Source: a candidate division BRC1 bacterium HGW-BRC1-1 (GTDB lineage Bacteria; Sumerlaeota; Sumerlaeia; Sumerlaeales; Sumerlaeaceae). From it: a stretch of 52,658 bases of DNA. Position numbers and translations under genes: made by a program. The notes below the pieces were generated by a model, which was not told the origin of the DNA, ran no database searches, and saw nothing but the letters and a program-made list of their open reading frames with translations. The stretch's first letter is position 1; every line of letters begins with the position of its first letter. The DNA is taken from the NCBI GenBank assembly GCA_002842095.1, contig PHCB01000008.1, forward strand, positions 316,995 to 369,652, in the 5' to 3' direction. Positions 21,415-45,004 of this stretch are shown in pieces.

Positions 21415-22515
21415 TCAGCCGGCTGCCTGTTCCGCCTGGTTTTCAGCCGAAAGCATTGCCATCATCTTCTCGCGCATGTCTGCGGGGAAGTGGCAGCGTT
21501 CGAGACAGACTTCGCCGGCGATGAGACCGCGCTTGTACAGCGTGAGCAGATAATCGTCCATGGTGATCATGCCCTGCTTGGCGCTGGTTTGAATCGTTGA
21601 GATAATGCGGTTAATCTTTTTCTCGCGGATCAGGTTGGCGACGGCCGGCGTGTTATGGAGAATTTCATAAGCTGCAATACGTCCTCGTCCGCTCGCTCGC
21701 GGCAGAAGCGTTTGCGCGATAATGGTGCGCAAGGCTACCGAGAGCACGGCACGAATCTGCTCCTGCTGATTCACAGGGAACTGGTCAATGACACGGTTCA
21801 TCGTTTCCGAGGCTGAGATAGTGTGAAGCGTGCCGAAAACCAAGTGGCCTGTTTCTGCCGCGGTAATGGCTGCCTCCGTGGTTTCCAAGTCGCGCATTTC
21901 GCCCACGAGAATGACGTCAGGATCCTGTCGCAAAGCACCACGCAGGGCGAAGGCGAATGACGGGGTGTCGACGTGAAGCTCACGGTGGCTTACGATGGAT
22001 TTTTTATGGGGGTGCGTATATTCCAGCGGATCTTCCACCGTGATGATGTGGCAGTAGCGCTCGGAGTTGATATAGTCGATCATCGTGGCAAGTGAGGTGG
22101 TCTTGCCGGAGCCGGTCGGGCCGGTTACGAGAACCAGTCCGCGGTGGGCGTTAAGAACTTCCATGATGGAGTCGCGGGGCAGACCGAGCTGGTCGAAGGT
22201 CAATAGCTTGGAAGGGATAAGACGCATAACGATGGAAATGTTACCGCGACACCGAAAGACTGCGCACCGGAAGCGAGCCATGTCGCTGTATGCATAGGCA
22301 AAGTCGGCGCCGCCTGTTTCCTGAATCATTTGCTGATAACGAGGGGGGGTGATTTCGCGCATCAGCCGGTCGGAATCGTCGGGGGTGATAACGTCAGGAT
22401 CGACGATATCGAGAGTTCCGTGGAGCCGCATGACGGCCGGTTTACCAACGGAAATATGGAGATCCGATGCCTCACGCTCAACCACGAGCTTCAGCATTTC
22501 GTTCATTTCAAGCAT
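21415..22515 (-). CDS. pilT: Type IV pilus retraction ATPase PilT
   Basis: This 366-residue hexameric ATPase powers pilus retraction at the inner membrane. The N-terminal domain begins ASDLHISVGKPAVMRLHG (about 16-33). The core has Walker A GPTGSGKT (132-139), the Asp box TVEDPLEY (159-166), Walker B DPDVILVGEMRD (198-209) and a His box TGHLVFGTLHT. The PilT-specific motif appears as AVANLIREKKI, close to the AIRNLIRE signature needed for retraction. The length is normal. No pilin or PilC gene is next to it; the PilB-like ATPase at 42431 is 20 kb away. Upstream at 22563-22574 is the small dyad GTCTG-AC-CAGAC. Confidence 0.93.
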   Translation of the reverse strand: MLEMNEMLKLVVEREASDLHISVGKPAVMRLHGTLDIVDPDVITPDDSDRLMREITPPRYQQMIQETGGADFAYAYSDMARFRCAVFRCRGNISIVMRLIPSKLLTFDQLGLPRDSIMEVLNAHRGLVLVTGPTGSGKTTSLATMIDYINSERYCHIITVEDPLEYTHPHKKSIVSHRELHVDTPSFAFALRGALRQDPDVILVGEMRDLETTEAAITAAETGHLVFGTLHTISASETMNRVIDQFPVNQQEQIRAVLSVALRTIIAQTLLPRASGRGRIAAYEILHNTPAVANLIREKKINRIISTIQTSAKQGMITMDDYLLTLYKRGLIAGEVCLERCHFPADMREKMMAMLSAENQAEQAAG

Positions 22516-32491: not shown

Positions 32492-33432
32492 GAAACCTGC
32501 CGAACAAAGATGGCGAAGTTATTGTCATCGCCGGTCCAACCGCCGTTGGCAAGACCGCCATTGCAGTCGAGCTGGCAATACGCAGTCGGGGCGAAATCAT
32601 CTCCGCGGACTCCATGCAGGTGTACCGTCACTTGAGCATTGGAACCGCCAAGCCCTCGCCGGAGGAATTGCGCGATGTGCCCTGTCATCTCATCGACTGT
32701 GTAGAACCGGACCATCAATTCAACCTCGGTGATTATGTTGCTGCTGCCACCCCCATAGTGGAAAATCTGCTTTCGGTCCAGCGGTTCCCGATCGTATGCG
32801 GAGGTACGGGATTATACATTAAAGGACTTCTGCACGGCGTCTTCGAGGGCGAGACCCGGAACCAGCAGGTGCGTGAAAACTTGAAGCAACGCGCCTCATC
32901 AGAAGGCTTGCACATATTGTATGAAGAGCTGGAAAGGTTCGATCCCGAAGCCGCATCCCAGATCAAGCCCACGGACGGGGTCAGAATTAGTCGGGCGTTG
33001 GAAGTTTGGTACACGACCGGAAAACCCATTTCCGAATTTCAGCAACAGCATTCCCGGCCGCCACGCTGGCCCACCCGATACTTTGTGTTATCGATCTCCA
33101 ATGAATTGCTGAACGAACGAATCGATCAACGTGTTCACGCGATGGTTGAACGCGGTCTGGTGCAAGAAATTAAAAATTATCTAATGCGGGATTTCTCACT
33201 GGATAACCCCGCTTTGCGCGCCTTGGGATATAGAGAACTTATCGAATCCATCGAGGGAAAACGAAGTTTGGAGAACGCGTTGGAAGCCATGATTCAAAAG
33301 TCGCGTCAATATGCAAAGCGGCAAAGAACATGGTTTCGATCCGTAAAAAATACAACTGTTATAGACTTGACTGGAAGGACGGTGGAAAGCGCCTGCGACG
33401 AGATTGCGTCCATGTGCTTTTCGCTTGCATGA
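32488..33432 (+). CDS. miaA: tRNA dimethylallyltransferase
   Basis: This 314-residue enzyme transfers a dimethylallyl group to N6 of A37 in tRNAs. It has the P-loop AGPTAVGKT (15-23), the ISADSMQVYRHLSIGTAKPSPEE segment (catalytic Asp and tRNA contacts), VCGGTGLYIKGLLHG and the C-terminal ALEAMIQKSRQYAKRQRTWFR. The length is normal. It supplies the substrate for MiaB, encoded on the same strand at 25904. It overlaps pgeF by 4 bases and is followed by hfq after 85 bases, the miaA-hfq order known from gamma-proteobacteria. Confidence 0.96.
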   Translation: MRNLPNKDGEVIVIAGPTAVGKTAIAVELAIRSRGEIISADSMQVYRHLSIGTAKPSPEELRDVPCHLIDCVEPDHQFNLGDYVAAATPIVENLLSVQRFPIVCGGTGLYIKGLLHGVFEGETRNQQVRENLKQRASSEGLHILYEELERFDPEAASQIKPTDGVRISRALEVWYTTGKPISEFQQQHSRPPRWPTRYFVLSISNELLNERIDQRVHAMVERGLVQEIKNYLMRDFSLDNPALRALGYRELIESIEGKRSLENALEAMIQKSRQYAKRQRTWFRSVKNTTVIDLTGRTVESACDEIASMCFSLA

Positions 33433-33440
33433 CATCAGCG

Positions 33441-33456
33441 AAAAACCAAAAACAAC
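33441..33456 (+). promoter_or_regulatory. A-rich ARN-like tract in the hfq leader
   Basis: AAAAACCAAAAACAAC holds 12 A in 16 bases and contains consecutive A-R-N triplets, the pattern bound by the distal face of Hfq. It lies 62 bases before the hfq ATG, in the miaA-hfq gap. Autoregulation is inference. Confidence 0.35.
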
Positions 33457-33517
33457 GGCCACCAAAGTTATCCGGCAACCGGCCTTGTTAACCACCATAA
33501 ATGGAGTCCATGGACAG

Positions 33518-33958
33518 ATGAAGTCCGGCATGAATCTACAAGATAGTTTTTTGAACCAGGTCCGTCGCGAGGCTACCGAGGTTCAAATATTGCTCACCAA
33601 TGGCACGCTGTTGCGCGGCATGGTTAAGGGCTTCGATAATTTTACGCTGATCCTGAACACCAGAAACGGTCGACAGAATCTCGTCTACAAACATGCCATC
33701 GCCCAGATTGTAAGTGCCCGGGCTATGCGCAATGATGACGACACTCCGAAGGATCAGGACGCTGAACAAAGTGTTTCAGAAAAGTCTGAAGTTGCAGTGA
33801 CAGAACCTCCATCTTCCCCATCCCCCGAAAAGCAACAACCGCCCCCGGTTGCAGCTGTGAAGGCCAAGGCCGCGCCGGCCAAGGAGACTTTCAATTCTCT
33901 CGATCTTTCCAAGATCAAACTGGCTCAAGCCGAGCCGACGGAAGTTCCCTCGAAATAA
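33518..33958 (+). CDS. hfq: RNA chaperone Hfq with long C-terminal tail
   Basis: This 146-residue protein begins with a full Hfq core: MKSGMNLQDSFLN (proximal-face Q8), rim residues R16-R17-E18, the Sm1 region and the Sm2 signature YKHA (57-60). Hfq forms a hexamer that pairs small RNAs with mRNAs. After about residue 68 comes an 78-residue tail rich in Asp, Glu, Pro and Ala, ending in a more ordered FNSLDLSKIKL segment. I chose the ATG at 33518 because it aligns with the family's start; an ATG at 33404 would overlap miaA. A perfect palindrome GTCCATGGAC (33506-33515) sits between a GGAG and the ATG. Confidence 0.93.
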   Translation: MKSGMNLQDSFLNQVRREATEVQILLTNGTLLRGMVKGFDNFTLILNTRNGRQNLVYKHAIAQIVSARAMRNDDDTPKDQDAEQSVSEKSEVAVTEPPSSPSPEKQQPPPVAAVKAKAAPAKETFNSLDLSKIKLAQAEPTEVPSK

Positions 33959-42275: not shown

Positions 42276-42430
42276 AAACTTACACCGAACATAAACCATT
42301 CCATGGGCAAACAGTTTCTCCTTTCAAGCCTGTGGTTGGCGGAAGCACCAATTGACGAAGCGAGATTGACAGGGCTGCCTTGTAAATGCAGAAACGAAAT
42401 CATGATATCTCAGTCTATCCGGGCCCTTCT

Positions 42431-45004
42431 ATGAAACCTATTTATCTGATCATTGCCTTAGCCGTTTGCGTCCTTACTCCCGATCTCAGCCACGCCGATG
42501 TTATCCATTTCAAAACCGGCGGACAACGCGAAGTGGTCATTCTCAGCGAAACCGACGAGATCATCACATACAGGGACCCTTCCACCAATAGCGAAATGCG
42601 TTTACCGCGCAATCTCATCGACCGCATCGAACGTACAGGCAGCGATTCCGGACAAGAAGTAGGCCGACGTGCTCGCAGCGCCTTTGATAATGGACAGCCG
42701 GAGGAAGCCTTTAAAATCATCATCGAAGCCGCGAAGACTTCTCCCGGAGATGCTGCCACGCTTGCACAAATTTTCCCAAGCCTGATCAGTCGCCAGATTG
42801 CATCAAGCCGCGCTCGATTAGCCTCCGAGCCCAATGCAGCCGTTGCGGGGTATGAGTTAGCCCTGAAGACATTACGAGACCCCGCCTTGAAGGCGCTTGA
42901 TAAACCCGCGGGTTCATTTGACTCGATGATTGTAACCGCCAACAACGAGCTTGCTCAGGTGTGGGCGGACGCTGCAACGAAACAACCCGCCGATGCTTTA
43001 CCAATGCTTCGCAAGGCCACCGAACTGGCCCCTGCTAACATTGAATATCAGCTCCGCCTTGCTGCGGTTGCCAAAGCTGCGGGAGACAACGCTACTGCTC
43101 AGTCTGCGTTAAAAGCTGTGATTGCCAGCCCCGATGCTCGGGCCGAACAGAAAGCCATGGCAGACGCACAGATTCAAGGCTTGGGCGTGACCCCTTCATC
43201 CTCACAAACTCCTCAGACGATCGCCTCCCCCACGCCCGTTGAAGTGTTCCCCATGAACAATACATCCAACGTTACCCCTCCCGGAACCATGCCCCCCCCA
43301 AGCCAAACAGCTCAGACTGCACCGGGATCTTCCAACATAACGCCTGAGCAGGTACAGGAATCTGCCAAGGGAATGGTGGACCGGGTTAAGCATTTCTTTA
43401 CCACGTTTAAGTGGAACGAACTTCCCGGCCAAATGTCCGGTTGGTTCCAATCTGCCATTCAGGCCGGTGTCCACATTCTCGTTGGAATACTCGCGGCCGT
43501 CTGGCTTCTCTTGTATGCCCTGCCAAATTGGTTTTTGAAAATGCGGTCGAAGCACGGTGACATAGCAGCCGCCGAGAGCAGACAAATCGCCAAGCGTTAT
43601 GGCATCTTCGCCCTCTTCCCGTATCTCTTAAAGGCGCGCAAAGCCGGACCCACCAAAAACAAATGCCCCTTCTGTAACAAAGGCATCGACAACATCGAAG
43701 CCTATCGGGATTTGAACTTCTACGTCTGCCCCCATTGTCAGGAAAACATCACTCCCATTTACGACCTGAAGGACTACATCTCTCATCTCATTCAGCAGCT
43801 TGATTTCGAATCGCGCCGCGTAAAGGATAAGGGCAGCGAGAGCGTTGTGGAGCGCGATGCCATGCAGAAGCTTGTGAGGGCTGTCCTCACACTGGCCGTG
43901 CGACGCCGTGCAAGCGATATCCATCTCGACACCGAATCCGATGGAACAGCAAAGCTGCGTTCGCGCATTGATGGTTTGATGTATGACATGATCACCCTGC
44001 CCAAGGGGGTGGCTATCGCATTTATCTCCGCGTTAAAAATCATGGCAACGCTCGACATTACCGAGCGCCGTACCCCGCAGGACGGCAAAGCGAGCCTGTG
44101 GGTGGACAAGAACGACCTTGATCTGCGCATCAACACCAGCCCCGCCTCGCAGGGAGAGAAAGTCTCCATCCGTATCCTGAACCAGAAAAGCATTCAGGTC
44201 GACCCCAGCCGGCTTGGGTTGGAGGGAGATAACCTGGAGAAATTCCAGCGCTCTATCCATCGTCCCCATGGTGTTATCATCGTCACCGGCCCCTCGGGAT
44301 CAGGCAAATCCACCACGCTTTACGTGGCCCTCAACGAGATCAACACCGGCGAAAAAAACATCGTCACCATCGAGGATCCCATTGAGTATCAGCTCAAAGG
44401 CATCTCGCAGATGCAGGTGAATCCGGCGGCGAACTTCACCTTCGCCACGGGCCTGCGTTCCATCCTTCGTCAAGACCCCGACGTTATCATGGTCGGCGAA
44501 ATCCGAGACAAGGAAACGGCGGTCATTGCAGTCGAATCGGCCATGACGGGCCACCTGGTTTTCACGACCCTTCACACCATCGATGCTCCCACGGCATTTG
44601 GCCGTCTGGCTGACATGGCCGTCGACTCCCGCCGACTCGCAGAATCTGTCATCTGCGTGCTGGGCCAACGTCTCGTTCGAACGATTTGCCCCATTTGCCG
44701 CAAGGCTTATAAGCCAAAGAAAGCCGATCTGGAGATGCTGGAACTCGCAGACTCAACCATTGAATTTGTCCATGGTTCGGGTTGCGACAATTGCCTCAAC
44801 ACCGGCTACCAGGGGCGTCTCGGTGTTTTCGAATTCCTTATGCCCGATGATGCCATTCGCGAGGTTCTTGAAACCCGTGCCCAGGTGTCGGTGCTACGTG
44901 AACTGGCTCGGAAAACAGGATATCGTCCCATGCGTGACGAGGGAATTCTACGCATTAACCAAGGTGTCACGACCGTGGAAGAAGTAATCCGGGTAACGAT
45001 CTGA
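42431..45004 (+). CDS. PilB/GspE-type ATPase with exported N-terminal half and membrane span
   Basis: This 857-residue protein has an unusual order. A signal peptide (1-22, ending DLSHA) is followed by a small beta domain (23-75: DVIHFKTGGQREVVI, PRNLIDRIER) and a TPR-like helical region (about 78-250, LRKATELAPANIEYQLRLAAVA). A Pro/Thr/Ser-rich linker (about 250-310) leads to one membrane span (343-363). A zinc ribbon (CPFC 412-415, CPHC 433-436) comes next, then a full secretion/pilus ATPase: SDIHLD, Walker A GPSGSGKS (620-627), Asp box TIEDPIEY, Walker B DPDVIMVGEIRD and the C-terminal tetracysteine CPIC...CDNC (753-788). The span is followed by positive residues, placing the ATPase inside. 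The ATG at 42431 starts the signal peptide. Confidence 0.88.
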   Translation: MKPIYLIIALAVCVLTPDLSHADVIHFKTGGQREVVILSETDEIITYRDPSTNSEMRLPRNLIDRIERTGSDSGQEVGRRARSAFDNGQPEEAFKIIIEAAKTSPGDAATLAQIFPSLISRQIASSRARLASEPNAAVAGYELALKTLRDPALKALDKPAGSFDSMIVTANNELAQVWADAATKQPADALPMLRKATELAPANIEYQLRLAAVAKAAGDNATAQSALKAVIASPDARAEQKAMADAQIQGLGVTPSSSQTPQTIASPTPVEVFPMNNTSNVTPPGTMPPPSQTAQTAPGSSNITPEQVQESAKGMVDRVKHFFTTFKWNELPGQMSGWFQSAIQAGVHILVGILAAVWLLLYALPNWFLKMRSKHGDIAAAESRQIAKRYGIFALFPYLLKARKAGPTKNKCPFCNKGIDNIEAYRDLNFYVCPHCQENITPIYDLKDYISHLIQQLDFESRRVKDKGSESVVERDAMQKLVRAVLTLAVRRRASDIHLDTESDGTAKLRSRIDGLMYDMITLPKGVAIAFISALKIMATLDITERRTPQDGKASLWVDKNDLDLRINTSPASQGEKVSIRILNQKSIQVDPSRLGLEGDNLEKFQRSIHRPHGVIIVTGPSGSGKSTTLYVALNEINTGEKNIVTIEDPIEYQLKGISQMQVNPAANFTFATGLRSILRQDPDVIMVGEIRDKETAVIAVESAMTGHLVFTTLHTIDAPTAFGRLADMAVDSRRLAESVICVLGQRLVRTICPICRKAYKPKKADLEMLELADSTIEFVHGSGCDNCLNTGYQGRLGVFEFLMPDDAIREVLETRAQVSVLRELARKTGYRPMRDEGILRINQGVTTVEEVIRVTI

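Follow-up and report, generated by a model that had tools for sequence, protein, structure and literature searches.

Within the window, the whole 52,658-nucleotide stretch of DNA from a Sumerlaeota genome that we analysed, a single open frame without internal stop encodes an ATPase of the GspE/PilB type that carries its own membrane anchor (Table 1). Translation may start at either of two in-frame ATG codons (42386 or 42431), and a clear Shine-Dalgarno sequence is found at neither. The encoded protein is composed, in order, of a signal peptide (MKPIYLIIALAVCVLTPDLSHA followed by DV) of typical Sec type with a cleavage-like end, a small beta domain, a TPR solenoid, a proline-rich linker, a transmembrane helix (TM1), a zinc ribbon and the ATPase. 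An earlier, sequence-only reading of this DNA had described a signal peptide, an exported half, a Pro-rich linker, one span with a positive C-terminal flank, a zinc ribbon and an ATPase, all in one uninterrupted frame, and we recover each of these elements in the sequence and the same continuous frame in its orthologues.

Table 1. Features of the anchored ATPase gene in window coordinates.
Feature	Position	Strand	Basis or remark
Whole gene	42431..45004	+	857 aa; the in-frame ATG at 42386 would give 15 residues more
Signal peptide, residues 1-22 (SHA/DV)	42431..42496	+	Hydropathy and AxA-like site common to homologues
Small exported beta domain, residues 23-68, weakly Sm/Hfq/SH3-like	42497..42634	+	AlphaFold strands, pLDDT ~79-93
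TPR solenoid, residues 71-252	42641..43186	+	Pfam, AlphaFold, structure matches
Pro/Thr/Ser-rich disordered linker, residues ~253-325	43187..43405	+	Sequence; pLDDT mostly <50
TM1, residues ~346-364, then MRSKHGD (RARRGD in relatives)	43466..43522	+	Hydropathy, alignment
H2, short hydrophobic/amphipathic stretch, residues 388-404	43592..43642	+	Conserved G391; KD 0.50
Zinc ribbon C412-x2-C415-x17-C433-x2-C436 (CPFC-x17-CPHC)	43664..43738	+	Cysteines invariant in alignments A1 and A3
ATPase (N2 and catalytic domain), residues 476-854	43856..44992	+	PF00437, E 6e-119; motifs aligned
Walker A GPSGSGKST, residues 620-628	44288..44314	+	Motif alignment

The anchored ATPase aligns nearly end to end with proteins from genomes of the same family (51-56% identity), and the order of signal peptide, exported part, transmembrane helix, zinc ribbon and ATPase, for which a search in related genomes had been proposed, is found in frame across most Sumerlaeota families. 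In same-genus pairs, dN/dS amounts to 0.15-0.54 for the exported part, 0.04-0.38 from the transmembrane helix to the zinc ribbon and 0.01-0.16 for the ATPase, on which selection is thus very strongly purifying. The fusion gene is genuine and under purifying selection, not an artefact; a frameshift, chimera or assembly join near 43400-43600 is excluded because orthologues in many genomes read through this region in frame, as well as by the selection acting on it. That the two halves are nevertheless produced as separate proteins, through an internal start or through cleavage in the linker, has in our view only a very slight chance of being correct: residue 478 is encoded here by an ATG with a GGAG sequence 9 nt upstream, yet a start at this position would cut into the N2 domain, the methionine is replaced by threonine in two relatives (L062/L063) and absent from other branches, and promoter-like sites are no more common than expected by chance. 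The internal start envisaged in the sequence-only reading thus has a candidate in this gene but is not conserved across the family.

The motor half retains the full set of catalytic elements that had been ascribed to it. The T2SSE family (PF00437) is matched with 397 bits against a gathering score of 24.9, and alignment with conventional paralogues places Walker A, the Asp box (EDPIEY), Walker B (VIMVGEIRD), the His box (TGHLVFTTLHT), the arginine motif and the C-terminal tetracysteine zinc site, all of them kept. In the full-length AlphaFold model this half is unusable because the alignment is shallow. Of the family-specific models, those for GspE (TIGR02533, 476 bits against a cut-off of 630.25) and PilB (TIGR02538, 430 against 675.65) give the best scores, yet the protein stays far below both cut-offs, and it likewise does not reach those for TfpB (NF053534, 382 against 850), PilT (TIGR01420, 164 against 319) or ComGA (NF041000, 239 against 300). 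No MshEN/N1 domain (PF05157) was found at this locus, whereas each of the six remaining strong ATPases of PilB/GspE type in the genome has one; with its signal peptide and TM1, the protein also departs from the PilB/GspE trait of being soluble, without transmembrane helix or signal peptide.

The conserved core of the family comprises TM1, a positively charged loop (RARRGD..AA), H2, the zinc ribbon and the ATPase. TM1 is one strong span (KD 2.29) with a net charge of +2 after it, and nearly all full-length homologues combine a signal peptide upstream with a positive flank following TM1. Together, the signal peptide and TM1 put the ATPase on the inner and the TPR part on the outer side of the membrane, in a predicted N-out/ATPase-in topology that would tether the motor, as the sequence-only reading had proposed, and that is supported by features common to about 25 homologues. 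H2 is here weakly hydrophobic (KD 0.50) with Lys/Arg on either side, and for these reasons is probably interfacial or re-entrant; were it to span the membrane, this topology would be broken, and H2 therefore leaves it in some doubt. A hairpin of TM1 and H2 with both ends in the cytosol, and an N-terminal half that is not truly exported, would suit the short forms L102, L103 and L153, which begin at TM1-H2, the weak reach of the anchor profile to small PLDc_N-like membrane proteins, and L036, in which three TM-H2 units can be made out by eye in tandem. We nonetheless consider such a hairpin highly improbable in view of the cleavage-like signal peptides in about 25 homologues, the positive residues that come right behind TM1 in almost every one, and an H2 that is too short and bears Lys/Arg on both sides in this family. 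The anchor profile also weakly matches small membrane proteins (L148, L149, L150 and L154) that combine a zinc ribbon with a PLDc_N-like TM hairpin, with per-genome E values of 1e-8 to 1e-6. Proteins of this kind are a possible source of the anchor. That the anchor is itself a PLDc_N-like module is a lead at most, as PLDc_N is weakly matched by small stand-alone zinc-ribbon proteins (E 2.5e-4 and 1.9e-3) and not by the ATPase anchors.

Modelled alone, the exported part (residues 23-253) yields a confident AlphaFold prediction (mean pLDDT 90.9) of beta strands followed by ten helices, in keeping with the beta domain and TPR-like helices first read from the sequence. A Pfam TPR match covers residues 177-238, and the solved structures that match the exported part are generic TPR solenoids. 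For the small beta domain no Pfam family was found, and an Hfq-like nature was set aside, as the domain profile (A6) matches Hfq-like chains only weakly (E 0.018-0.09). Elsewhere in the window, at 33404-33958 (+), lies a gene whose product looks Hfq-like by eye and has a long tail rich in Pro and Ala.

The exported half is also the fastest-evolving part of the protein, with an amino-acid identity of about 30% between related genera compared with about 75% for the ATPase, and its composition varies across the family: most members have both beta domain and TPR, G016 and G022 have the beta domain without TPR, several families have TPR without the beta domain, G020 has a very short version, and in G008, G023 and G017 a multi-span membrane part stands in its place. 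By eye, the replacement in L036 and L038 (from G008 and G023) consists of three tandem TM1-H2 units, and in G017 (L109 3145-8958) the multi-span anchored ATPase directly follows genes that resemble, again by eye, those for flagellar export (fliP/Q/R and flhB). At least three stand-alone signal-peptide proteins of this genome (L156, L159 and L160) carry the same beta domain in front, with TPR-like helices after it; these and L157 are stand-alone signal-peptide proteins in which this small beta domain is combined with either TPR or a Pro-rich tail. In f158, a stand-alone beta-TPR protein is encoded two genes upstream of the fusion, and in the second phylum (L100 12508-14583 and L101 11422-13655) genes for an FGE-sulfatase-domain protein and a stand-alone beta-TPR protein precede the fusion on the same strand. 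Since the exported half is modular in make-up and has stand-alone exported counterparts in this genome, the description of it as a sensor in the sequence-only reading is unsupported, and this half is best seen as a recruited exported scaffold rather than a dedicated sensor. A motor with a true gate, along the lines of the sequence-only reading, whose TPR/beta domain would sense tension or a ligand and switch the ATPase via the linker and the TM helix, is permitted by the topology and consistent with purifying selection on the exported half in same-genus pairs (dN/dS 0.15-0.54). We regard a gate of this kind as distinctly unlikely, however, as the sensing part would be the most variable region of the protein, lost or replaced in lineages that retain anchor and ATPase, with fold matches to generic TPR solenoids and with a disordered Pro-rich linker of about 70 residues before the membrane that would make a poor transmitter.

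The profile of the anchor region (A1) has a strong match in 32 of the 40 Sumerlaeota genomes, one per genome. When only good genomes are considered (completeness of 90% or more, contamination of 5% or less, n=20), 19 encode the anchored ATPase, and in the remaining one (G002) the gene is truncated at the end of a contig. Among 346 genomes outside Sumerlaeota, the full architecture appears in two genomes of the f158 family and a short form in two genomes of another phylum; the phylum to which f158 belongs has an anchored ATPase in 9 of the 14 genomes covered, with the full architecture known from f158, and the third phylum has the short form (anchor, ribbon and ATPase) in both of the genomes covered. 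A broader anchor profile run over 385 genomes added one more case, L153, a 488-residue ATPase with a TM-H2 anchor and no zinc ribbon. In a tree of 66 ATPase cores, built with the anchor left out and including 27 conventional ATPases, the Sumerlaeota anchored forms make up one group (support 99/94) that is joined with those of the second phylum at 100/97, and a branch with support 94/85 separates every anchored form from the 27 conventional PilB/GspE proteins, in agreement with an earlier quick tree. This grouping of anchored forms by their ATPases alone argues that the anchor was probably gained once.

Seven strong GspE/PilB-type ATPases, the anchored one included, are encoded in this genome together with about eight of the PilT type, five PilC genes, some of them without an ATPase alongside, and about four PilM/GspL-like proteins. 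A search for another PilB and for PilC, suggested by the sequence-only reading, was thus productive on both counts: all six further PilB/GspE ATPases carry MshEN, two of them adjoin PilC, and the five PilC genes lie elsewhere than the fusion locus. That reading had also entertained the fusion as the standard PilB of the phylum; its phylum-wide presence agrees with this, but an identity with the plain PilB is rejected given the six MshEN-type paralogues that coexist with it. The window also encodes a PilT/PilU-type ATPase of 366 residues (21415-22515, minus strand), apparently solitary and 20 kb from the fusion gene.

The gene at 42431-45004 has neither a pilin nor a PilC or secretin gene as its neighbour, as had been noted, and in most relatives, too, it lies next to no pilus gene. 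The observation holds for this locus but not for the deepest Sumerlaeota lineage (G039), where the ATPase gene is directly and closely preceded, in the same orientation, by genes for a PilC/GspF protein (PF00482, 9e-43) and an ARMT1-like protein; such an apparent operon of PilC with the anchored ATPase is found in this one genome. Across relatives we found no conserved neighbours that would name a pathway, synteny with housekeeping genes (panC, a glycosyltransferase gene and mnmG) being restricted to near relatives at the family level, and no specific PilC orthologue that tracks the anchored ATPase across Sumerlaeota. Two near-identical tandem PilC genes without an adjoining ATPase (G000:C3:248033-250968; L066 6001-9173), with prepilin-like genes (by eye) some 3-4 kb away, are candidate platform partners.

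Our preferred explanation, which we hold with about even confidence, is that the anchored ATPase serves as an extension-type assembly motor for type IV filaments, in a pilus or a T2SS-like machine, with its stator supplied in cis. The retention of a single-copy gene across nearly all Sumerlaeota points to a pilus motor that would bring its own mooring rather than borrow one. Where PilB and GspE have the N1/MshEN domain by which they dock on PilM/GspL, this protein has the TM helix, the probably interfacial helix H2 and the zinc ribbon, with the linker and beta/TPR scaffold on the predicted outer side of the membrane. Six subunits would assemble into a ring beneath a PilC/GspF platform, and their six TM helices, rather than PilM/PilN or GspL, would hold it in place. 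The ATPase would drive a platform protein that may be encoded elsewhere in the genome, among the five PilC genes, and the exported TPR arms could bind an envelope partner, such as the alignment complex, peptidoglycan or a secretin-side protein, whose engagement may place or license the motor.

A solo gene without pilus neighbours, on a branch apart from all conventional ATPases, might instead belong to a protein that has left filament assembly for envelope signalling or remodelling, its TPR recruiting envelope proteins and its hydrolysis reporting or regulating without moving pilins; the PilB of Myxococcus, too, has been described as a signalling protein (PMC5544727). We consider this departure from filament assembly possible but unlikely, since all motor motifs are kept, the arginines and the tetracysteine zinc site included, and PilC/GspF shares an apparent operon with the ATPase in G039. 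A wider generalisation of the cis-stator motor, which we offer tentatively, would see in these proteins a transmembrane class of traffic ATPases, spread over at least two phyla and a single-copy core component of one, in which stator and envelope receptor are fused to the motor and the state of the envelope licenses the filament without PilM/GspL or c-di-GMP acting via MshEN.

With a self-anchored motor kept throughout a phylum, two questions that are difficult to disentangle in model systems can be taken one at a time: what purpose the PilM/GspL dock serves, and whether the ring has to be immobile with respect to the membrane. Should a ring with a covalent anchor be able to drive a platform protein, it would be unlikely to rotate freely as a whole against the membrane in that system. 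The gene also provides a conserved envelope-machine candidate for Sumerlaeota, which are known here from metagenome-assembled genomes only.

The motor ATPases of known type IV filament machines lie in the cytosol and dock on a stator that is a separate component, and we found no description of a membrane-anchored or TPR-fused GspE/PilB in the open-access literature. The anchored ATPase has in common with PilB of the type IVa pilus (TIGR02538) the N2 and catalytic domains, all motifs and the tetracysteine zinc site, and differs from it in lacking N1/MshEN and in having a signal peptide, TM helix, zinc ribbon and exported domain of its own. GspE of type II secretion, for example Vibrio EpsE (1p9r/4kss), is closest in score (PDB E 2e-107) and also has the tetracysteine, but is soluble and held by GspL via its N1 domain, whereas the protein described here is tethered covalently. 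The fused part would work like the GspL and PilM-PilN stators, with a cytosolic dock, one TM helix and a periplasmic arm; we found no sequence relation to them, and the fused exported part is made of beta domain and TPR, unlike the ferredoxin-like domain that forms their periplasmic arm. ComGA, the competence ATPase, is likewise a traffic ATPase without an N1 domain, and we know of no membrane anchor in it. Absence of N1 has been described for some such ATPases (PMC10191384), and it is for the N1 domain of PilB that contacts with its docking socket, formed by PilM, have been inferred (PMC11656802). TfpB of Acinetobacter baylyi is similarly an additional, phylogenetically distinct extension motor that acts beside PilB (PMC8213720); it belongs to a different family, and we know of no TM or exported half in it. 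Set against these systems, the anchored ATPase stays within the traffic ATPases as a conserved form that defines its clade, and does not make up a category of its own.
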